This document shows, one piece after another, positions 7,142 through 64,000 of a DNA stretch of 64,000 bases; within the stretch, counting starts at the first letter, position 1; each line of letters begins with the position of its first letter. The stretch is from contig JAEUQK010000024.1 of assembly GCA_016789265.1 (NCBI GenBank), positions 1 to 64,000 on the forward strand, in the 5' to 3' direction. Source of the stretch: Blastocatellia bacterium. Lineage in GTDB: Bacteria; Acidobacteriota; Blastocatellia; Pyrinomonadales; Pyrinomonadaceae. The notes below the pieces were generated by a model that was not told the DNA's origin, ran no database searches, and saw nothing but the letters and a program-made list of their open reading frames with translations. Both the position numbers and the translations under genes were made by a program.

Positions 7142-8006
7142 TTCGCACGCAATGAACTACTCAACTCTTCAAACTCTCACACCGCCAGCAACGGAGAGGC
7201 GAACGCAGACCGTCTCTCCTCTTTCCCGTTCCATCATCCACTGGTTCTCAATGCAACGGGTAACGCAGATGGTCACAGTTCTCGTTATCGCATTCATTCT
7301 CAAGTATCATTATTCGACCGCAAGCGTGAACGGCCTGAAATGGATCCTCGCGCCGACCGCGTTTTTGGTCGAACTCGTAAGCGGCGTCCCGTTCGTGTTC
7401 GAATCGCACGCCGGCTACATGAATGCGGACAATACGTTTCTTATCGCCGCCCCTTGCTCCGGTATCAACTTTCTTATCATTGCATTTACCATGCTCGCGG
7501 TGGGCGTGTTGTGGCGAGATCGGACTGTGCAGACCAGATGGATCTTCATGCCGGCGTCGCTCGTTGCTGCTTATGTTTCGACGATCATCGCAAACACGGT
7601 CCGTATCGACATCGCATTGCAAACACGGAGTACCGGCCTTGGATCAAGCTGGATGAATCCGGAAGAGATCCATCGCGTCGAAGGCATCGTAGTTTACTTC
7701 AGTTTTCTCTTGCTGCTTTTTGTAGTTTCTGAGGTTGTCCGGGCAGGAGGAGTTAACGGAAATACTCTCCGGCGGCTTTTGATACCTTTAGCGATCTACT
7801 ATGCCGTGACGCTTGGGATCCCCGTTTTGATGGGAGCGTTTCGTCTTCCCGGATTTTGGTCGCACTCGATATTCGTGATCGTAACTCCGTCGCTTGTCAT
7901 GCTTCCGCTTGCGGTGTGCTTGTATGCTATTCGCTTTTGTCAGCAACGCGGAGTTCAAACACATTCTTGCCTGGTGTCCAACTCTTCCAATCCAACTCTG
8001 CATTGA
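7134..8006 (+). CDS. exosortase family protein, dedicated to the upstream VIT/VWA protein
   Basis: 290-residue multi-pass membrane protein with the exosortase catalytic triad visible: Cys108 in APCSGINF, Arg157 in NTVRID and His180 in IHRVEG. Exosortases cleave a C-terminal signal of exported proteins and may transfer them to another acceptor. It overlaps the target gene by 8 bp, so the two are co-translated. The subfamily may be XrtK, but I recall that only loosely and cannot check it. Its 3' end overlaps the convergent histidine-kinase gene by 80 bp. No exopolysaccharide genes typical of the EpsH/XrtA class are nearby. Confidence 0.82.
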   Translation: MSNSHAMNYSTLQTLTPPATERRTQTVSPLSRSIIHWFSMQRVTQMVTVLVIAFILKYHYSTASVNGLKWILAPTAFLVELVSGVPFVFESHAGYMNADNTFLIAAPCSGINFLIIAFTMLAVGVLWRDRTVQTRWIFMPASLVAAYVSTIIANTVRIDIALQTRSTGLGSSWMNPEEIHRVEGIVVYFSFLLLLFVVSEVVRAGGVNGNTLRRLLIPLAIYYAVTLGIPVLMGAFRLPGFWSHSIFVIVTPSLVMLPLAVCLYAIRFCQQRGVQTHSCLVSNSSNPTLH

Positions 8007-54963: not shown

Positions 54964-56421
54964 TCACTGTCCCTGGCCAAGTGAATAACCAGGCTGTCCG
55001 TCGAATGTGCAGAGGTTCTCGGTCTTGATGAACTCAAGCCCAAGACCGTCGATCCTTTTCAGCAGCCCGATGATCTCCGACGTGCCGATCGTAGGGTTCG
55101 ATCCGTCTGTCATGAACCGGCATCTCCAATGGTCCGTACAAAAGGTCTCCGGCATTCCACCCGGATAGACCTTGACGCCGCGATTTGTGATCATCTGAAG
55201 CTGAACACCTCTGCCGTTCGCAGATTCGAGCCGTTTGCCCAGTTCTTCGGGGGAACCGCCTTTCCATTCGAGAAACACATCTACTCCAACCGTGTCTTTG
55301 CGGATCTCGGTATCATGAGGCGAGGGAACATAGGAGGTCAATATCTTTTCGTCTCCCTGCGAATACTCAACACGTTTAAGCCTTTCTGGATACTGGCCAA
55401 GACGCTCGATGACCGCGTCGGCAAATCCGTCGGTCCCCGTTAGTTCCTTGCTCAACCCTTCTTTGAAGATATCGGCAGTGTGCACGCCGTCCTCGACTGT
55501 TCTGAGCCACGCGTTGTGCACTTTGCCAGCGATCTCAGGCTGGCCAATATGGACGAGCATCATAATTGCACCGTGAAGCAGGCCCGAAGGATTGGCAATG
55601 TTCTTTCCGGCAATGTCGGGAGCCGATCCGTGGATCGCTTCAAACATCGCCACGTGTTCACCGATGTTTGCTGAACCCGCGAGTCCGACCGATCCGGTGA
55701 TCTGGGCAGCAACGTCCGACAAGATGTCGCCATAGAGATTTGGCATTACAACAACGTCAAACTTCTCCGGCGTGTCTGCGAGTTTGGCGGCCCCGATATC
55801 GACTATCCAGTGTTCGTTCTCGATCTGCGGATACTCAGCCGCTATCTCGTCGAAAACCTTGTGAAACAGGCCGTCGGTCATCTTCATGATGTTGTCTTTG
55901 GTGAAACACGTGACCTTTTTTCGATTGTTCAATCGGGCGTACTCAAACGCGTATCGGACGATCTTTTCACAACCCGGACGGGTAATGAGTTTGAGGCATT
56001 GATAGACCTCACGCGTTTGGCGATGCTCGATGCCAGCGTATAGATCTTCCTCATTTTCGCGAACTATCACCATGTCCATCACCGGATGTTTTGTGTCAAC
56101 AAACGGATGATAAGAGACACAAGGGCGAACATTTGCATAGAGCCCTAGAGTCTTTCGCACCGTAACGTTAAGGGACTTGTAGCCGCCGCCCTGTGGGGTC
56201 GTGATCGGCGATTTGAGAAATACTCTCGTTCGGCGAAGCGATTCCCAGGCCTCGGGAGCTATTCCGGCCGTATTGCCGGAAAGATAGACCTTTTCGCCGA
56301 TGTCTATTTTTTCGATCTCGATCCTCGCCCCGGCGGCTTCCAAGATACGCAGCGTAGCGTCCATTATTTCCGGTCCAATTCCGTCACCGGCCGCAACCGT
56401 GACAGGCGTCTTCTCTTCCAT
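54964..56421 (-). CDS. icd: NADP-dependent isocitrate dehydrogenase
   Basis: 485 residues, isocitrate/isopropylmalate dehydrogenase fold with GDGIGPEIMDATL at the start, RENEEDLYAGIEHR and the Mg/isocitrate region NPSGLLHGAIMM. Longer than E. coli Icd (416) with a C-terminal extension of about 100 residues, as in the alpha-proteobacterial type. It oxidises isocitrate to 2-oxoglutarate. CO2 released here could be hydrated by the neighbouring carbonic anhydrase-like protein. Confidence 0.9.
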   Translation of the reverse strand: MEEKTPVTVAAGDGIGPEIMDATLRILEAAGARIEIEKIDIGEKVYLSGNTAGIAPEAWESLRRTRVFLKSPITTPQGGGYKSLNVTVRKTLGLYANVRPCVSYHPFVDTKHPVMDMVIVRENEEDLYAGIEHRQTREVYQCLKLITRPGCEKIVRYAFEYARLNNRKKVTCFTKDNIMKMTDGLFHKVFDEIAAEYPQIENEHWIVDIGAAKLADTPEKFDVVVMPNLYGDILSDVAAQITGSVGLAGSANIGEHVAMFEAIHGSAPDIAGKNIANPSGLLHGAIMMLVHIGQPEIAGKVHNAWLRTVEDGVHTADIFKEGLSKELTGTDGFADAVIERLGQYPERLKRVEYSQGDEKILTSYVPSPHDTEIRKDTVGVDVFLEWKGGSPEELGKRLESANGRGVQLQMITNRGVKVYPGGMPETFCTDHWRCRFMTDGSNPTIGTSEIIGLLKRIDGLGLEFIKTENLCTFDGQPGYSLGQGQ

Positions 56422-56530
56422 AAGTTAAAATTGCTCCTGTTATTTTTTGACACACCTCGCCCCACCCGAGTTTTAGCCAGGTTAAGAAAGGATGTTTTGT
56501 TGGGAAAATCTCTCTAAATCAGAAGGGTGT

Positions 56531-56932
56531 TCAGCGACCTATCATCACTTCAGTTGCCTTGAAGAGAGCGTGGACCCGCATGCCCGGTTTCAGCCCCATT
56601 TCCTCGCAGCCGCGGCGGGTAATGATAGATATTATCTGCTGTCCGCCGACATCGACACCGACCTCTGCAAACAGCCCCTGTATTTCGACCGATGTAACTA
56701 TGCCGGTGATACGATTTCTGACACTTATCGGATCATTATGCAGGTCAGCGTCGGCGATGGCTGTTGATCTAACTTTATGGCCCGAGAGCCTTTCGACCTC
56801 GCTTGCCGGTATCCGATGATGACCCCCGACTGTACGGATCGATCTTATCTTGCCGCTATATATCCACTGCTTGATTGTCGGATAACTGATGCCGATCTGT
56901 TCCGCTGCATCCTTCGGCTTTAGATTTTCCAT
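56531..56932 (-). CDS. HTH plus TOBE/Mop-domain transcriptional regulator
   Basis: 133 residues. An excisionase/MerR-type helix-turn-helix (about 5-50, EQIGISYPTIKQWIYSGKIRS) is joined to a TOBE/Mop domain (about 70-130) of the sort that binds molybdate or other oxyanions. This domain pairing is typical of molybdate-responsive regulators related to ModE. It has four copies of a TATACGA-like motif upstream, which suggests self-regulation. No mod transport genes are in the window. Confidence 0.8.
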   Translation of the reverse strand: MENLKPKDAAEQIGISYPTIKQWIYSGKIRSIRTVGGHHRIPASEVERLSGHKVRSTAIADADLHNDPISVRNRITGIVTSVEIQGLFAEVGVDVGGQQIISIITRRGCEEMGLKPGMRVHALFKATEVMIGR

Positions 56933-56949
56933 AGATAAATATATGTGGT

Positions 56950-57055
56950 TCTATACGACTATGTCAAGTATAACTATGCGATTTTATATCGTTTCCGTCG
57001 ATCGCGAACTGACCAGCGTTTTGACGAACCGATTATATACGATTTGATACGACTT
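56950..57055. promoter_or_regulatory. four TATACGA-type repeats upstream of the HTH-TOBE gene
   Basis: TATACGACT (56952-56960), TATGCGATT (56975-56983), TATACGATT (57036-57044) and GATACGACT (57046-57054) share a seven-base core; an inverted TATATCG lies near 56985. The last two are 10 bp apart, about one helix turn. They lie 20-122 bases upstream of the regulator start on its own strand and could be its operators. Confidence 0.5.
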
Positions 57056-57062
57056 TGAGAGC

Positions 57063-57089
57063 CAAAAAAAGCCCCGCACAAGCGAGGCT
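57063..57089 (-). terminator. terminator after the ECF sigma gene
   Basis: On the minus strand AGCCTCGC (57089-57082) pairs with GCGGGGCT (57077-57070) around TTGT, with one G-T pair, then TTTTTTT. It lies 22 bases after the sigma-factor stop. Confidence 0.85.
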
Positions 57090-57110
57090 CAGGTTCGAAC
57101 TCTTAAATTT

Positions 57111-57773
57111 TTATTGTGATTGTCCCCAGTTTGCCAGAAGACGTGGGTTAGCCTTCTTCTTAAGGAGCTTTCGCAGTTTCAGTCTTGCCTTGTGAAGCTG
57201 CGATTTAGAGGTGCCCACCGAGCAGCCAAGGATCTTGGCGACCTCTTCGTGCTCAAACCCTTCGACGTCGTGCAGGACAAACACGTTCTTGTAACCATCG
57301 GGCAGCTGATCGATCGCGATCTCGAGGGCGATCTTGTCAACGATCGGCATCTTGTCCGGGTTCGACGTGCCGGCGACGATCTGATCCGGAGTGTCGCCTT
57401 CTTCGGTCACCTTTTCAAACTTTACGTTCCGCTTGCGGAAATGCATCAGAACTTGATTCACAGTCATGCGATGCAGCCAGGTGGTAAACGCCGAGTCGCC
57501 GCGAAAACTGCCGATCTTCCGATAAAGCTGGATAAACACGTCCTGTGTCAGGTCCTCGGCCTCATGGGCGTTCTGAAGCATACGTAAACAGATCGAATAT
57601 ACACGGCGGTGATGCCGCTGGTAGATCTCCTCGAAGGCTATCATGTCGCCATTCGCGGCCGCCTGGGTAAGTTCAATATCCTTTGCCGTCCCGTACGCGA
57701 CCGGTTTCTGCGTTTCGCCGAACGAGGCCGTTTCACTCTGTAAGATCGGGAATGTTAAGGTTTCTGCTGTCAT
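57111..57773 (-). CDS. ECF-type RNA polymerase sigma factor
   Basis: 220 residues from ATG 57773, preceded by AAGGGGGAACACGGAA; the longer start is not supported. Region 2 has [19 protein letters not shown] (about 90-115) and region 4 has [28 protein letters not shown] (about 175-205). A short acidic/hydrophobic N-terminal extension precedes region 2. No anti-sigma gene lies next to it, so its control is unknown. Divergent from a small membrane-protein gene. Confidence 0.9.
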
Positions 57774-58052
57774 TTCCGTGTTCCCCCTTGTCACCCTTGT
57801 TTCAATCTGTATGCCAAAACTCAGCAAGCTGTGTAAAGTGTTGTAAATTAGACGCCGCAATTGCGATTTTGTTCCAATTTTATGGGCATACTCTGATATT
57901 CGACATACATCAAAGCAAGGATTCACCCGTGTTTCGTCCACGCAGCATTCCAATTGCTGCACGAAATCGTGTATGCACTGCATCAGTACGTATTGTCGTC
58001 ATTTAGGCATGATGCTAACATGTTCATTCCCTGATCTTCGAGAGCTATTCCT

Positions 58053-58787
58053 ATGCGGTCGGGTCGGTTTATGAAGTGTTTTCGTATATTTCCGTTGTTA
58101 ATGGCTGCTTTTTTGGTGCTGCCCCAGTTTTTGTCAGCGCAGTACAAAAGCCAGGAAGTGTCGGAAATCGACGGCATCCCCGTTCTTGTCAAACATTTAC
58201 CGGATTGGGAATCGGTAAAAGACCAAGCCCGGATCACCGATTCGCTGGCTGATGTCCGCGCATGGCTCGGCCAGCGGCCCGTTTTAGATGTGATCGACCT
58301 CTCAGGCGGTGCCGAAGCCGCCACAGCAATGTACCCGGCGGGAAAACTATTGCTGTTGGAATATCCGACTCCTCAGATGTCGTCGGCTGCAGACGCTGTG
58401 ATCATCGACAAACTGACTAACGAACCGTCATCGCCGCCGATCGTTTATAAAAGGATCGGTAACTACAATGTCTTGGTCTTTGACACTGGTGACACCGCCG
58501 CTGCCGAGGCATTGGTCGCAAAGATAAGATTCGAAAAATCGGTCCAGTGGCTCGGTGACGACCCGTTCCTCGTGGGCAAGATCCAGCGTTATCTGGTCGG
58601 CACCTCGGCTGATATGCTGATCTCTACCGCGATCTTCATTACACTTGGGCTAGCGGGAGCTGTCATGGTCGGGATCTTCGGCGGTTTCGTAGTTTTCCGA
58701 ATGCGGGAGCAGAAACGAACCCAATGGCATGCATTTTCTGATGCCGGCGGCCTTACACGCCTTAACCTCGACGAACTCTCAGAATAG
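58053..58787 (+). CDS. hypothetical exported protein with C-terminal membrane helix
   Basis: 244 residues. Signal peptide (about 7-29, MKCFRIFPLLMAAFLVLPQF), a soluble domain of about 160 residues, then a membrane helix (about 188-213, Gly/Ala/Val-rich) and a charged cytoplasmic tail. Not recognised. An internal ATG at 58071 is an alternative start. Divergent from the sigma gene. Confidence 0.62.
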   Translation: MRSGRFMKCFRIFPLLMAAFLVLPQFLSAQYKSQEVSEIDGIPVLVKHLPDWESVKDQARITDSLADVRAWLGQRPVLDVIDLSGGAEAATAMYPAGKLLLLEYPTPQMSSAADAVIIDKLTNEPSSPPIVYKRIGNYNVLVFDTGDTAAAEALVAKIRFEKSVQWLGDDPFLVGKIQRYLVGTSADMLISTAIFITLGLAGAVMVGIFGGFVVFRMREQKRTQWHAFSDAGGLTRLNLDELSE

Positions 58788-58788
58788 G

Positions 58789-59913
58789 TTACGGCAGTTC
58801 TGCCACGAGCCTTTCAATATCTTCTAAATCGTTGTAAAAATGCGGAGCGATTCGCAGCCTGTCGTTGCGCGGGCTTACGATAATATTGGCTTTCTGTAGG
58901 TGCGACGCGATCTCGCTACAGTGAAGGCCGCCACGATGCTTGATGCAGACAATAGCCGACCTTTCACCGGGCGCGCGTGAACTGAGTATTTCGTAGTCTT
59001 TGCTTGCCAGCATTTCGCAGAGCTGTCCGGAAAGTTCGTCCAAATATCTTTCGATAATGTCGAGACCCGTTTCGTTCAACAACAACAGACTTTGTTCGAG
59101 GCCATAAAACAGGGCCGACGCGCCGGTACCACTTTCCCACGCCAAAGCATTCGGTTTCCATGGCTGCTCTCTATCCTCAAAATCCCAGGGCGTTTCCACG
59201 CTGATCCAACCCGTCAGCGTCGGATCGACAAGTTCCCGTGCCTTGTCGGAAACAAAAAGAATACCGCAGCCTTCGGGCGCGCAGAGCCATTTATGGCTTG
59301 CACCTGCCGCGATATCTACACCGAGTCCCGACAGATCGTATCCACGAGCGCCAAACCCCTGGATGATATCCACCGCAAACAACGCGTCCACCGCGCGTGC
59401 CGCGTCGCCGATGCGTTCGAGTTCTGCAGAAAAACCGCTTGCGAATTGAACACTGCTGATCGTTACGAGTTTGGTGTTTGGATCGATCAGCGACGTATAT
59501 TCGTCCAAATCGATCCGTCCGTCGCGTTCCGGGCAAAGCCGCAGCTCAACACCGTATTTGTCACGAATTCTACGCCACGGGTAGAAATTCGCCGGAAACT
59601 CGCCCGCAAAACTGACGACGTTATCGCCGGGTTTCCAGTCGATGCCGGACGCGATCGACGCAAATCCATCTGAAGTGTTACGCGTGAAGGCGATCTGGTT
59701 ATCGCGGACATTCAGCATTGAAGCGATCAGGTTTCGGGCCCGGTTTTTCGTTGCGATCCACTCAAGATAATGTTCGGAACCGTGATGTGCGACATCCCGT
59801 AGCTGCGAGAGGACGGCATCGACCGCCGTTGTAGGTATTGGCGAGACCGCAGCGCTGTTGAGATAGGTGTAATTTTCCAAGGCGGGAAATAGGGATCTGA
59901 TCTGTTCGTTCAT
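58789..59913 (-). CDS. class V aminotransferase / cysteine desulfurase-like protein
   Basis: 374 residues, PLP enzyme of the class V group. PLP Lys lies in AGASHKWLCAPEGCG (near 205), with TRNTSDGFASIA upstream. The IscS/SufS Cys motif is not seen in the usual place, so desulfurase activity is doubtful. No neighbours that reveal a pathway. It converges with the gene at 58.0 kb one base away. Confidence 0.85.
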   Translation of the reverse strand: MNEQIRSLFPALENYTYLNSAAVSPIPTTAVDAVLSQLRDVAHHGSEHYLEWIATKNRARNLIASMLNVRDNQIAFTRNTSDGFASIASGIDWKPGDNVVSFAGEFPANFYPWRRIRDKYGVELRLCPERDGRIDLDEYTSLIDPNTKLVTISSVQFASGFSAELERIGDAARAVDALFAVDIIQGFGARGYDLSGLGVDIAAGASHKWLCAPEGCGILFVSDKARELVDPTLTGWISVETPWDFEDREQPWKPNALAWESGTGASALFYGLEQSLLLLNETGLDIIERYLDELSGQLCEMLASKDYEILSSRAPGERSAIVCIKHRGGLHCSEIASHLQKANIIVSPRNDRLRIAPHFYNDLEDIERLVAELP

Positions 59914-60011
59914 GCGAAGAATTACTTTGACAAAAACCGTCGTGAAAGCTACCGTTTATCGATGATGCGCGGCAAACGCCATCATCCGTTCACCTCATCA
60001 AAGCCCTGATT

Positions 60012-60719
60012 ATGTTCCTTTTCTCGCGCAAAGACCAATACGACTTCGGGTACGTGTCCCCGCAGGACGACAACGACATCCAGGTCACGGATCTCCATAA
60101 AGAAAGCCGAAACGGATTCCTTTACGAAAGCTTGCGTCTAGTTCGCGACGTCTTCCTGATCGTGATCGTATTGGTACTCTTCGGCGTGTTCTTTGTACAG
60201 CCGGTTGTGGTTGACGGCAGCTCGATGGTGCCCGTGCTTCACGATGGCGAGCGGCTACTGGTAAACAAATTTGTATATTACAAGGTCCAGAGCGTGAGCT
60301 GGGGACACCTGGAACGCGGCGATATAGTGGTCTTTTGGTATCCGGACGATCCGGACAAGAGTTACGTAAAACGGCTGATCGGACTGCCGGGCGAGACGGT
60401 GGAGGTTCGCGACGGAAAGGTCTATATCAACGGAAATCTGCTGCCTGAAAACTACCTGGACGAAGAACACAATCGATCAAAACCGTCATTCCCTCCACAG
60501 CGGATCGAGCCGCACCATTATTTCGTGATGGGCGATAATCGCGATAATTCATCTGATTCGCGTTATTGGGGTTCGGTACCGGAAAAATACATTTACGGCC
60601 GAGCATTCTTTCGTTACTGGAAACCGCAGAGTGTCGGGCCGCTGCAGCAGGGACGATATCCGGAAGTCCTCGAAAGCGAGACAAAGGATATGCGTGCAAC
60701 GGACGAAGACAAAGAGTAA
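60012..60719 (+). CDS. lepB: signal peptidase I
   Basis: 235 residues. A single membrane helix (about 42-62), then the catalytic Ser71 in VDGSSMVPVL, Lys120 in YVKRLIGLPGE and the GDNRDNSSDSRYWG box. Cleaves export signal peptides at the outer face of the inner membrane. A charged N-terminal extension of about 40 residues precedes the helix. Confidence 0.94.
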   Translation: MFLFSRKDQYDFGYVSPQDDNDIQVTDLHKESRNGFLYESLRLVRDVFLIVIVLVLFGVFFVQPVVVDGSSMVPVLHDGERLLVNKFVYYKVQSVSWGHLERGDIVVFWYPDDPDKSYVKRLIGLPGETVEVRDGKVYINGNLLPENYLDEEHNRSKPSFPPQRIEPHHYFVMGDNRDNSSDSRYWGSVPEKYIYGRAFFRYWKPQSVGPLQQGRYPEVLESETKDMRATDEDKE

Positions 60720-60784
60720 GCCGAGCAGCGAATCGCAATAGCCGCTTATGCCAACTCGCCGCGTTGCTGTAAAATGTTCGGGTA

Positions 60785-61888
60785 ATGAGTGAGTTGGTCA
60801 AGGCGATCTTGGTATTAGAGGACGGACGCACCTTCCACGGTGCGTCTTTTGGCGCAATAGGCGAGACCTTCGGCGAGATGGTCTTTAACACGTCGATGAC
60901 GGGTTATCAGGAGATCTTGACCGACCCCAGTTATGCCGGGCAGGTCGTCTGCATGACCTATCCTCTGATAGGAAACTACGGCGTTAACGAAACGGACGTC
61001 GAATCGCGGCGGCCCTGGGTCGAGGGTTTCGTCGTCCGCGAAGCCAGCCGCATTCGCTCGAATTGGCGGTCCACACAATCCCTGGACGATTATCTAAAAA
61101 CCCATGACATCGTTGGCCTCGAACAGATAGACACGCGCGCCCTCGTCCGCCATATACGCGATAAAGGAGCGATGCGTGCGGGCATATCGTCGGTAGATAT
61201 CGATCCGGAAAGTCTTCTGAAAAAGGTTCTTGCCTCGCCCGATATGAAGAACCGTGAGCTTGCGACGGCGGTCACGGTTGACGAAACATACGACTACCCG
61301 TCTATGGACGAGACGAAGTTTCACGTGGTCGCCTATGATTTCGGCGTAAAAACGAACAGCCTGCGTGAATTCGCAAAATACGGCTGCAAGGTAACCGTGG
61401 TTCCTGCCGAAACGTCTGCCGACGAGGTGCTTGCTCTAAAGCCCGATGGTATTTTCCTCTCGAACGGTCCGGGCGATCCGGCCTCGATGAAAGCGGTCGT
61501 CGATGAGATCCGAAAACTTACCGGGTCGAAGGTGCCAATGTTCGGTATTTGTCTCGGGCATCAAATACTCGGACAAGTTTTCGGCGGCGAGACCTACAAG
61601 ATGAAATTCGGCCACCGCGGCGGCAACCAGCCGATCAAAGACCTCACGACCGGCAAGGTCGAGATCACGTCGCACAACCACGGCTTTGCGGTCGATGCCG
61701 ATTCGCTTCCGGCCGATGTCGAGGTCACGCACGTGAACCTTAACGACAACACGGTCGCCGGCCTTCGCCACAAAAAACTCCCGATCTTCTCGGTCCAATA
61801 TCATCCCGAATCTGCCCCGGGGCCTCATGATTCTGAATATTTGTTCGACCGATTCATAAAGATCATGAAGAAACCAGTGAACGAATAA
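60785..61888 (+). CDS. carA: carbamoyl-phosphate synthase small subunit
   Basis: 367 residues. N-terminal CPSase small-chain domain (1-170) and C-terminal glutamine amidotransferase with Cys256 in FGICLGHQ and HPE near 343. Supplies ammonia to CarB for arginine and pyrimidine synthesis. carB is not in the window. The integron remnant begins 49 bases after its stop, so the mobile region starts right behind this core gene. Confidence 0.95.
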
Positions 61889-61937
61889 ATTCGACGATAC
61901 TCCCAACAAACCCAGTTCCACGAAAAGTCAGGTTCGA

Positions 61938-62258
61938 TCATCCAGCGGGCTTCGCACGAAGTCTTTCTTCTGCATTACGTGTGTATCGATCTATGCCGAG
62001 GACCTGGTTGCAGAGGAACAATAGCGCGTTGAAAGCCACCTTCTGCGTCGGGGCTGCGACTTTCTTATCTACGGCTGGATATGTTAGGAACTCGCGAATC
62101 TCGCCGACTCCCATCTCGAGCGAATGTCTCTTTTTGTGAAAGAATATGTGATCGCGAATATACCCACCGTATGCCCGCTCGGTCTTGTGACTCATGTGCC
62201 GCAACCGTATCAAATTACGTACTTGGTCCAATAACTTTGGCGGTTTCGTTCCGTGCAT
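61938..62258 (-). pseudogene. truncated integron integrase (IntI-type), N-terminal part only
   Basis: 106 residues. It matches the N-terminal SAM-like domain of integron integrases (PPKLLDQVRNLIRLRHMSHKTE, FFHKKRHSLEMGVGEI, and FNALLFLCNQVLGI). The catalytic tyrosine-recombinase domain with its Arg-His-Arg-Tyr residues is missing: the frame ends at 61938, 49 bases from carA. A whole IntI is about 320-340 residues. It points away from the cassettes, as intI genes do. Confidence 0.72.
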
Positions 62259-62317
62259 TTGAGGTTGATAATATACGCAGGAAGTTTATTATCAGGTGAT
62301 GATGTCGTTAATAACTA

Positions 62318-62324
62318 GTTGGGC
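62318..62324 (+). promoter_or_regulatory. attI-like core site (GTTGGGC) at the cassette boundary
   Basis: GTTGGGC fits the GTTRRRY core of integron recombination sites, inside TAACTAGTTGGGCC. It lies 60 bases from the end of the intI remnant and right before the cassette gene. This is the expected place of attI and the point at which cassettes enter. Confidence 0.5.
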
Positions 62325-62375
62325 CGACCGGACCGTCGAGTCGGCGATCGACCGAAAGTCCCTCAGTGGAGAACT

Positions 62376-63281
62376 ATGATGCGCTTCGTTGGTGTCACTC
62401 TGCTCGTAGTCATTGTTGTCGCTGCTGGTGTGTCGCCCGCTTCAGCGCAGAATCGGCTGCCACCGGACGCGCCTCGACCGATTGAGGCGGGTGCCAGTTT
62501 GTGGGCCGAAGAGCTCACTTCGATGGAGATTCGAGATGCCATCCGCGCGGGCACCACGACGATCATCATTGGAACCGGCGGCGTGGAACAGAACGGGCCG
62601 TATGTTGTGGGCGGCAAGCACAACGACGTCCTGCAGACCGTTCTTCCCTTTGTCGCTCGCGCGATCGGCAACGCCCTGATTGCTCCGATCGTCAAGTTTG
62701 TACCAGAAGGAAGCATCGAGCCGAGCCCGACTGGCCATATGCAATACGCGGGCACGATCAGTCTCGAGCAGGCCACGTTTGAAGCCCTGCTCACTGATAT
62801 CTGCCGAAGCTACAAAGCCCACGGGTTCCTGAACATCGTCCTCGTCGGTGATAGTGGTGGCAACCAAGCCGGCATGGAGAAAGTCGCCGACGCGTTGAAC
62901 CGCAAGTGGTCGGCGGAGCGCGCTCGCGTCCACTACCTCCGCGAATACTATTTTGAAGATCGGTGGAGCTACACTTACCTGAAGTCTTTGGGCATTACCC
63001 AGATTGATCGGACTCCGCCGCCCGGGGAGCCACAGGATCGCCCAGCGGATTGGCGCAATGGCATTCATGATGACATCTACTATGAGGCACAGATTGCGGT
63101 TCAGGATCCGAAGCTCATTCGCATGGACCAGCGCCTCAAGGGCGGGCAGTTCTCCCTGCACGGCGTTGAACTCGCGCCAATCAGCAAAACCATTGAGATC
63201 GGGGAGAAACTCGCCGCGTACCGCGCAGGCATCACGGCGAAAGCGTTTCAGGCATCCCAGCGGCGTATGGGGAGGAACTAA
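62376..63281 (+). CDS. cassette-encoded secreted creatininase-family protein
   Basis: 301 residues from ATG 62376, preceded by AGTGGAGAACT; the frame opens at 62319 (TTG) but lacks support there. Signal peptide (about 2-24, MRFVGVTLLVVIVVAAGVSPASAQ). A creatininase/creatinine amidohydrolase-like fold, with metal-binding GVEQNGPYVVGGKHNDVLQ (near 70-88) and GDSGGNQAGM (near 165). The mature region looks more GC-rich than the host genes, as cassettes often do. Substrate unknown. First cassette of the array. Confidence 0.78.
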   Translation: MMRFVGVTLLVVIVVAAGVSPASAQNRLPPDAPRPIEAGASLWAEELTSMEIRDAIRAGTTTIIIGTGGVEQNGPYVVGGKHNDVLQTVLPFVARAIGNALIAPIVKFVPEGSIEPSPTGHMQYAGTISLEQATFEALLTDICRSYKAHGFLNIVLVGDSGGNQAGMEKVADALNRKWSAERARVHYLREYYFEDRWSYTYLKSLGITQIDRTPPPGEPQDRPADWRNGIHDDIYYEAQIAVQDPKLIRMDQRLKGGQFSLHGVELAPISKTIEIGEKLAAYRAGITAKAFQASQRRMGRN

Positions 63282-63292
63282 ATCCTGGTGCG

Positions 63293-63352
63293 GCCCAACA
63301 GGGCGCTGCAGCGGACGGCCCTCCGGGCCGCCGCTGAGCTTGGACGTTAGAC
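63293..63352 (+). other. attC recombination site of the first cassette
   Basis: A 60-bp imperfect palindrome with GCCCAAC (63293-63299, RYYYAAC) and GTTAGAC (63346-63352, GTTRRRY). Inside, CAGCGG-A-CGGCCC pairs with GGGCCG-CCGCTG around TCC, leaving one unpaired A, the extrahelical base that integrases use to choose the strand. Position is 12 bases after the creatininase stop. Confidence 0.8.
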
Positions 63353-63380
63353 GGCATTGCCAGAGCCCGACTCGAGGCAT

Positions 63381-64000
63381 ATGGACACCGACACTAAGAC
63401 CGATAAGCTGCTGTTGTCCTGCGGCATACTGTCGGGACTCGCTTACATCGCTACCGACCTTCTGGCAAGCCTTCTGTACCCAGGCTACAGTTTCCGTGGG
63501 CAGGCCGTCAGCGAACTCTTCGCGATCGGCGCGCCCACCAGTCGCTGGGTCGTGCCGCTGTTCAGCCTGTCAAGTGTGCTCCTACTTGCTTTCGCCGTCG
63601 GCGTGTGGCGCACCGCCGGCGCCCGGCGCTTGGTTCGTGCGCTCGCGCTGATGTTCGCCTGCTCCGCGGTCGTAGGCTTGCTCATCTGGAGTGTTTTTCC
63701 GATGCCCATGCGCGGCGCTGAGCGAACCTTCACGGACACGATGCATCTGATCCTGGCGACCAACCCGTTCGTGCTGGTGAGCCTCATCCTCGCTATCGCC
63801 GCATTTCGGGGTAGACTTCGCGTCTATTCTGCGGTAACGGTGATCATCATGCTGGTGCCTGCTATCGCCGCATTCTCCTATGCGCGAGCGTTGGACATGA
63901 ACCAACCGACGCCGTGGCTGGGTGCCACCGAACGCCTTGCGCAGTATGGCTACGAGACATGGCAGGTGGTGTTGACCATTGTCTTGTTGAGGAGACAGGA
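63381..64000 (+). CDS. second cassette gene, DUF998-like membrane protein (3' end outside window)
   Basis: The frame starts at ATG 63381, 29 bases after attC, and stays open to the window end (206 codons and two bases). Hydrophobic segments around residues 10-30, 55-75, 85-105, 122-142 and 150-168 give a multi-pass membrane protein. The motif QAVSELFAIGAPTSRW near 40 fits DUF998, a family of unknown function. Being GC-rich and directly after attC, it is the second cassette. The stop codon and its attC lie beyond the window. Confidence 0.7.
   Translation, partial: MDTDTKTDKLLLSCGILSGLAYIATDLLASLLYPGYSFRGQAVSELFAIGAPTSRWVVPLFSLSSVLLLAFAVGVWRTAGARRLVRALALMFACSAVVGLLIWSVFPMPMRGAERTFTDTMHLILATNPFVLVSLILAIAAFRGRLRVYSAVTVIIMLVPAIAAFSYARALDMNQPTPWLGATERLAQYGYETWQVVLTIVLLRRQ

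Follow-up and report, generated by a model that had tools for sequence, protein, structure and literature searches.

Acidobacteriota are among the phyla listed as carrying integrons (PMC8618304), and an attC model for Acidobacteria has been published (PMC8352920). Integrons with a broken integrase gene have been described for Xanthomonas, where intI was inactivated by frameshifts, stops or large deletions and the cassettes were kept (PMC12444791). According to a survey of 2008, nearly one third of the intI genes examined were pseudogenes and 20% of the bacteria in it had more than one integrase gene (PMC2426708). A literature search combining integron, Pyrinomonadaceae and Blastocatellia gave no 'integron' among the matches listed, which does not imply absence in print.

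The locus described here lies at the right-hand end of the window, that is the whole stretch of 64,000 nucleotides analysed (bases 1-64000 of contig C33, 185,192 bp, from a genome of 3.88 Mb in 42 contigs). It is an integron of an Acidobacteriota bacterium, flanked by a housekeeping gene on either side and with 641 bases missing from its integrase gene, and it is a clear example of an already known kind of integron decay.

Organisation of the locus

carA and the elements that follow it are listed here in their order along the contig:

60785..61888, + strand: carA, the left neighbour and a host gene, 367-aa ORF with its stop at 61888
61934..62258, - strand: intI remnant (TIGR02249/PF13495), similar to the 3' end of intI in the genus member G025 and with collinear blocks to that of G035
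62265..62294, no strand given: symmetric promoter-like element TTGATA-N16-TATTAT / CTGATA-N16-TATTAT, the same as before intI of G007 and G035
62307..62324, + strand: attI core, GTTAATAACTA followed by GTTGGGC, which aligns with GTTAATCAATA followed by GTTAGGC in G035
62318-62324: attI/cassette junction heptamer GTTGGGC
62319..63346, + strand: gene cassette 1, bounded by two GTTRRRY heptamers
62376..63281, + strand: creatininase-family protein, 301 aa (PF02633, E = 9.7e-22)
63293..63352, + strand: attC of cassette 1 by the covariance model, R'' at 63293-63299 and R' at 63346-63352
63347..64000 and on past the window, + strand: gene cassette 2, no attC found
63381..64031, + strand: DUF998 membrane-type protein, 216 aa (PF06197, E = 2e-19 for the part in the window)

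An earlier reading of the sequence only had noticed a leftward intI fragment, a GTTGGGC junction, a cassette with one gene, an attC and a second cassette gene behind carA, and all of them are present in that order. The recombination cut of cassettes falls after the G of GTTRRRY. The last 31 bases of the DUF998 gene lie past the window end (stop at C33:64031) and are followed by a convergent gene, which from its sequence we take to be that of the membrane pyrophosphatase, hppA, its stop starting at C33:64104.

Matches to carA were obtained in 38 of the 41 genomes of the genus (E<=1e-100), 37 of them relatives, and the comparison of the locus that the sequence-only reading had proposed covered the carA loci of 29 of these relatives. 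carA and hppA face each other in 14 of the 29 loci, always with a shorter gap than the 2,215 bp of the window (61889-64103), namely 22-118 bp in seven and 615-1080 bp in seven, and no attC was found at E<=1 in the stretches searched of the 29 loci. In the near relative G063 (L026), whose carA is 87-88% identical, the gap is 118 bp and the integron is therefore absent. The gap is variable within the genus, and the loci that hold 615-1080 bp (L032, L036, L037, L042, L046, L049 and L053) do so without attC.

The integrase remnant

The leftward ORF 61938-62258 (106 aa) is matched by TIGR02249 over residues 9-91 (E = 1.3e-18) and by PF13495 (E = 4.6e-19). Only two NCBIfam models were matched by it at E<=1, both of integron integrases, which agrees with the previous assignment of this protein. 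Compared with intI of G035 the piece from the window falls into two collinear blocks (41-291 = 15-265 and 289-340 = 904-955), and the gap between them is therefore internal, 641 bp long and out of frame. Codons 1-90 (61989-62258) are joined out of frame to about the last 18 codons of intI (61934-61992), the missing bases belonging at about 61989-61992, and beyond residue 90 blastn aligns the sequence with the 3' end of G025 intI (81% over 59 bp). The loss of the catalytic domain noticed before is thus real, but it is due to an internal deletion that keeps the 3' end and not to a truncation of the gene at its end. GATC is found on both sides of the joint in G025 and also at the joint in the window, from which we infer a deletion by way of this short homology.

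Over the shared part the remnant is 72% and 70% identical to intI of G007 (ACE_ACI5) and G035 (DTUACD1), respectively. A tree of the N-terminal part groups it with these two (support 0.988) on a branch of 0.300, against 0.085 and 0.088 for the intI of G007 and G035.

The attC site

Since Rfam gave nothing over the gathering score at 56000-64000, we trained a covariance model on 31 attC sites from elsewhere, hand-picked for orientation, with the window site left out and the structure supplied by hand. With this model 63293-63352 reaches 50.2 bits, E being 3.3e-11 for 139 kb and 9.3e-10 for the genome, so that the model check suggested before comes out in favour of the attC with its two core boxes. 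In the model alignment 87.2% of the cells are paired, against 24.5-46.2% after sliding by 1-3 columns, and the covariation score is 0.347, a value that none of 500 shuffles reached (their mean being 0.155), figures that lean towards structure because the training sites were partly chosen by fold. Pairs changed on both sides (214 of 500 shuffles) and further pair types (151 of 500) were not above the shuffles.

The L'' box GCTgCAGCGGaC stands against GCTCAGCGGC on the other arm. On inspection a G and an A in it are extrahelical, as in many sites of the class, where one such base had been noted before. R'' (GCCCAAC) is complementary to the adjoining R' (GTTAGAC) at 5 of 7 positions and is the exact reverse complement (7/7) of GTTGGGC at the attI junction. 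This is the expected outcome because integration at attI moves the R' of the cassette upstream, all but the first base of the cassette's own R' ending up at its upstream end.

A scan for core boxes plus fold on both strands of the window gave exactly one site, again 63293-63352. When the scan was run on one strand of 80 intI loci, with thresholds for fold and complementarity unchanged and length limits slightly narrower, it found 27 sites, against one in a single dinucleotide shuffle of these loci. No other attC was found by the covariance model in C33:61001-99000 (E<=10), and the expectation of further sites downstream failed up to 35 kb past the window end. In a genome-wide search with 150 of 918 candidates scored, the window attC was the best-scoring of these 150 and was found together with the two stronger sites of contig C10. 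This search and a genus-wide one (103 candidates per genome, with stricter filters) miss weak sites, among them a third C10 site and one in G006 (29 bits).

The gene cassettes

Cassette 1 has a GC content of 0.604, against a mean of 0.526 and a maximum of 0.587 in 188 neighbouring 1-kb windows. At E<=1e-3 there are 3320 homologues of the creatininase-family protein, of which the closest apart from itself is 88% identical, and 865 of the DUF998 protein, with named homologues in Marinobacter (86%) and a Gemmatimonadales MAG (81% over 88% of its length). Both genes are widespread, and they were likely captured by the integron. In plasmids there was no match to the attC region or the DUF998 protein, and in viral contigs none to the DUF998 or creatininase-family proteins. 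The DUF998 gene looks complete, its close homologues stopping at about the same residue. With the filters off nothing above 1.1 bits was found as an attC in C33:63900-64300, and this second cassette has apparently lost its own attC.

The attI site and the promoter-like element

Upstream of intI, G007 and G035 have TTGATAATA-N-TATTATCAA followed by GTTAATCAATAGTT. An attI profile made from seven other sites, with those of the window and G024 outside the training set, finds 62260-62325 as a weak match (E = 0.0088 over about 189 kb), and in a search over 1.79 Mb the window attI was not listed at E<=0.05. The same profile finds the attI of C10 (E = 2.4e-4) and of L074, another Pyrinomonadaceae MAG (E = 9.9e-6), the latter with a second match at 7314-7370 (E = 9e-4). 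The window attI appears to be homologous to that of the relatives in the genus, and diverged.

Read towards the cassettes the dyad is TTGATA-N16-TATTAT, and read towards intI it is CTGATA-N16-TATTAT. Two promoter-like matches in the stretch, where 0.8 (sd 0.9) are expected, are alone within chance, and therefore the case rests on the recurrence of the element before intI of the relatives. On this ground the + strand element is predicted to be Pc and the - strand element a former Pint.

The palindrome has one exact copy in the host genome, a count that speaks against a role as genome-wide operator. Across the genus it occurs at 14 distinct places in 10 of the 41 genomes (control 0), with spacers of 15 to 18 by our own count. 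Nine of the 14 lack both the exact attI core and the variant of the window, and of the eight of these that were searched (all but G008:C177) seven gave no attC at E<=1. At the eighth, in G024:C83, the attI profile matches (E = 4.5e-10) and there is a weak attC match (13.7 bits, E = 0.042). It is conceivable that the dyad has a wider role. Symmetric TTGATAATA...TATTATC places without exact attI core and without attC match were seen in L156, L160, L162, L164, L165, L167 and L173; such places without the core are perhaps degraded attI platforms, or else a general promoter or operator.

The profile of attI plus predicted promoter is a tool for finding integrase-less platforms in Pyrinomonadaceae, and it lets one ask whether several attI sites per genus are served by one integrase.

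Integrons in the genus and beyond

At least 13 of the 41 genomes of the genus have an attC at E<=0.001, strict filters making this a lower bound. An intI over the TIGR02249 cut-off was found in four of 37 genomes (36 relatives and the host genome, G000), namely G000, G007, G025 and G035, all four among the 13 with attC. Eight attC-positive genomes have none (G002, G016, G021, G022, G023, G024, G027 and G036), the thirteenth being G060, which was outside the intI search; many of these are incomplete MAGs. G007 (JAHBSJ010000008.1, Acidobacteria bacterium ACE_ACI5) and G035 (JAJTWY010000005.1, Pyrinomonadaceae bacterium DTUACD1) have a full-length intI with attC matches beside it. Both fall in the same genus as the window, and going by the labels of these two records the host is a member of Pyrinomonadaceae, Acidobacteriota.

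One clade (100/99) unites the intI of G007, G035, G025 and C10 with those of two other MAGs of Pyrinomonadaceae, and another Pyrinomonadaceae intI (L108) falls outside it. The tree uses 30 of 80 named intI loci, with G007 and G035 entered as their named records; the partial G051 intI and the window remnant are left out of this full-length tree and L087 is kept despite an internal stop. Together with the listing of the phylum and the published attC model cited above, this clade speaks against the view of the sequence-only reading that Acidobacteriota would be an unusual place for an integron.

The exact core GTTAATCAATAGTT has nine copies in eight of the 41 genomes, its reversed control one. 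Two of the nine adjoin a full-length intI (G007:C24 and G035), that of G022:C1 has a short 5' intI piece only, and those of G007:C3, G023, G024:C30, G006 and G036 gave no intI piece in the 3.6-19 kb searched. An attC lies beside seven of the nine at E<0.001 and weakly beside that of G036 (E = 0.086), while the core at G027:C1:208408 gave no attC match. At G027:C1:249345 an intI remnant of 39 aa and attC matches lie next to a different attI (profile E = 5.8e-8).

Judged from these arrangements, intI appears to have been lost repeatedly in the genus while attI, the promoter-like element and the cassettes stayed, the window being a putative intermediate. The plain reading of the integrase-less platforms is decay.

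Some further arrangements were observed. An attI core followed by attC, with no intI or (G022) a 5' scrap of it, is seen in L186 (G007:C3), L188 (G022:C1), L190 (G023:C1), L187 (G024:C30) and L191 (G006:C176), and G007 has its integrase-less core on C3 and its full-length intI on another contig. In two members of the class, L061 (G044:C28) and L056 (G039:C46), attC lies on the 3' side of intI and in the same direction, which is an inverted integrase arrangement. A 93-bp attC is nearly identical in two phyla, at L065:11626-11718 (Pyrinomonadaceae DTUACD1) and L087:2954-3046 (Verrucomicrobia nzgw608), a likeness that suggests cassette exchange between phyla.

The integron on contig C10

The host genome has a second integron on contig C10:

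G000:C10:23934-27736 (= L003:3934-7736): integron between glyS and an ORF which we take to be ftcD

Its intI is full-length (341-345 aa; 413.6 bits, cut-off 265) with divergent genes beside it, and is 64% identical to the window remnant over the shared part. Three attC matches (33.3, 32.0 and 20.2 bits) have the expected orientation. The first strict scan missed this array because its R boxes deviate (e.g. GCCGAAC/GTTAAGC), and its sites were found by the covariance model.

Probable decay of the integron and alternative explanations

Our reading, held with considerable confidence, is that of a probably long-resident chromosomal integron whose intI lacks 641 internal bases and whose predicted promoter, attI-like site and two cassettes are likely still transcribed and likely no longer shuffled from the locus. 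Cassette 1 would have been inserted at attI by IntI, next to a symmetric TTGATA/TATTAT element that may now serve as Pc and formerly also as Pint. A deletion at the GATC short homology would have inactivated intI, and a further loss could have removed the attC of cassette 2 and so fixed the DUF998 gene in place. The cassette genes are probably stuck and, by prediction from the promoter-like element, probably still expressed. Excision of cassette 1 would now be possible only through an integrase from elsewhere, e.g. that of C10 in trans.

A chance meeting of a degenerate Xer-type recombinase piece with an unrelated attC-like hairpin has a negligible probability. Rfam gives only a chance-level match on the hairpin and core heptamers are common (32 GTTRRRY on one strand of the window), but this reading is refuted by the independent attC model, by an ORF that only integron-integrase models match and by the 7/7 complementarity of R'' and the attI junction. 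An assembly error in intI, with an intact integron in the living strain, might be suspected in a draft genome of 42 contigs; it is very improbable, given that the joint sits inside a 185-kb contig, that the branch of the remnant is longer than those of related intI and that integrase remnants beside attI and attC also occur in the genus members G022 and G027.

The earlier suggestion that the cassettes may be frozen is plausible and yet not assured, because of the full-length intI on C10. Action of the C10 integrase in trans on the window locus is possible, and for CALINs it is stated that a functional IntI can move the cassettes in trans (PMC12444791). We nevertheless consider it rather doubtful that the cassettes are mobile in this way and the window is the second live site of a two-site system. 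The three attC matches beside the C10 intI and the top score of the window attC among the candidates scored in the genome favour it, whereas the integrase lineages differ, the attI cores differ and cassette 2 has no attC. A wider version, in which the genus would run a distributed integron whose symmetric-promoter attI pads capture and express cassettes through an integrase elsewhere or newly acquired, the window being a pad with its integrase half deleted, seems unlikely. On the reading as a decayed chromosomal integron, the locus gives Acidobacteriota a further decaying integron, one with clear limits, and the step that inactivated it, the 641-bp gap, is readable.

Comparison with known systems

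Where a functional integron has a full-length intI with its catalytic domain, this locus has an intI with an out-of-frame internal deletion; it does have an attI, though diverged, beside intI, and an attC of the folded type is present as well. A CALIN has two or more attC sites and no intI, and C33:1-99000 gave one attC. The locus has the chromosomal place and the host-lineage intI of a decayed sedentary chromosomal integron, the sedentary type being assigned because of the 185-kb contig, the position between carA and hppA and the grouping of the remnant with intI of the same genus.

The remnant resembles intI pseudogenes in general (PMC2426708), a word search for Acidobacteria in the text of that survey giving none. 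As in a CALIN, an attC cluster lacking an integrase (PMC8618304), the cassettes have no working integrase beside them; unlike a CALIN the locus has a single attC, below the default threshold of two (PMC12444791), and keeps a visible intI remnant, the promoter-like element and attI. It is similar to the Xanthomonas integrons at ilvD in being chromosomal with intI broken and cassettes kept, and differs from them in the phylum, the carA-hppA site, the second integron with full-length intI and the one attC left (PMC12444791). The integrons of G007 and G035 have the closest intI relatives, the same promoter-attI arrangement and attC beside it, whereas their intI are full-length and they lie at other chromosomal places.
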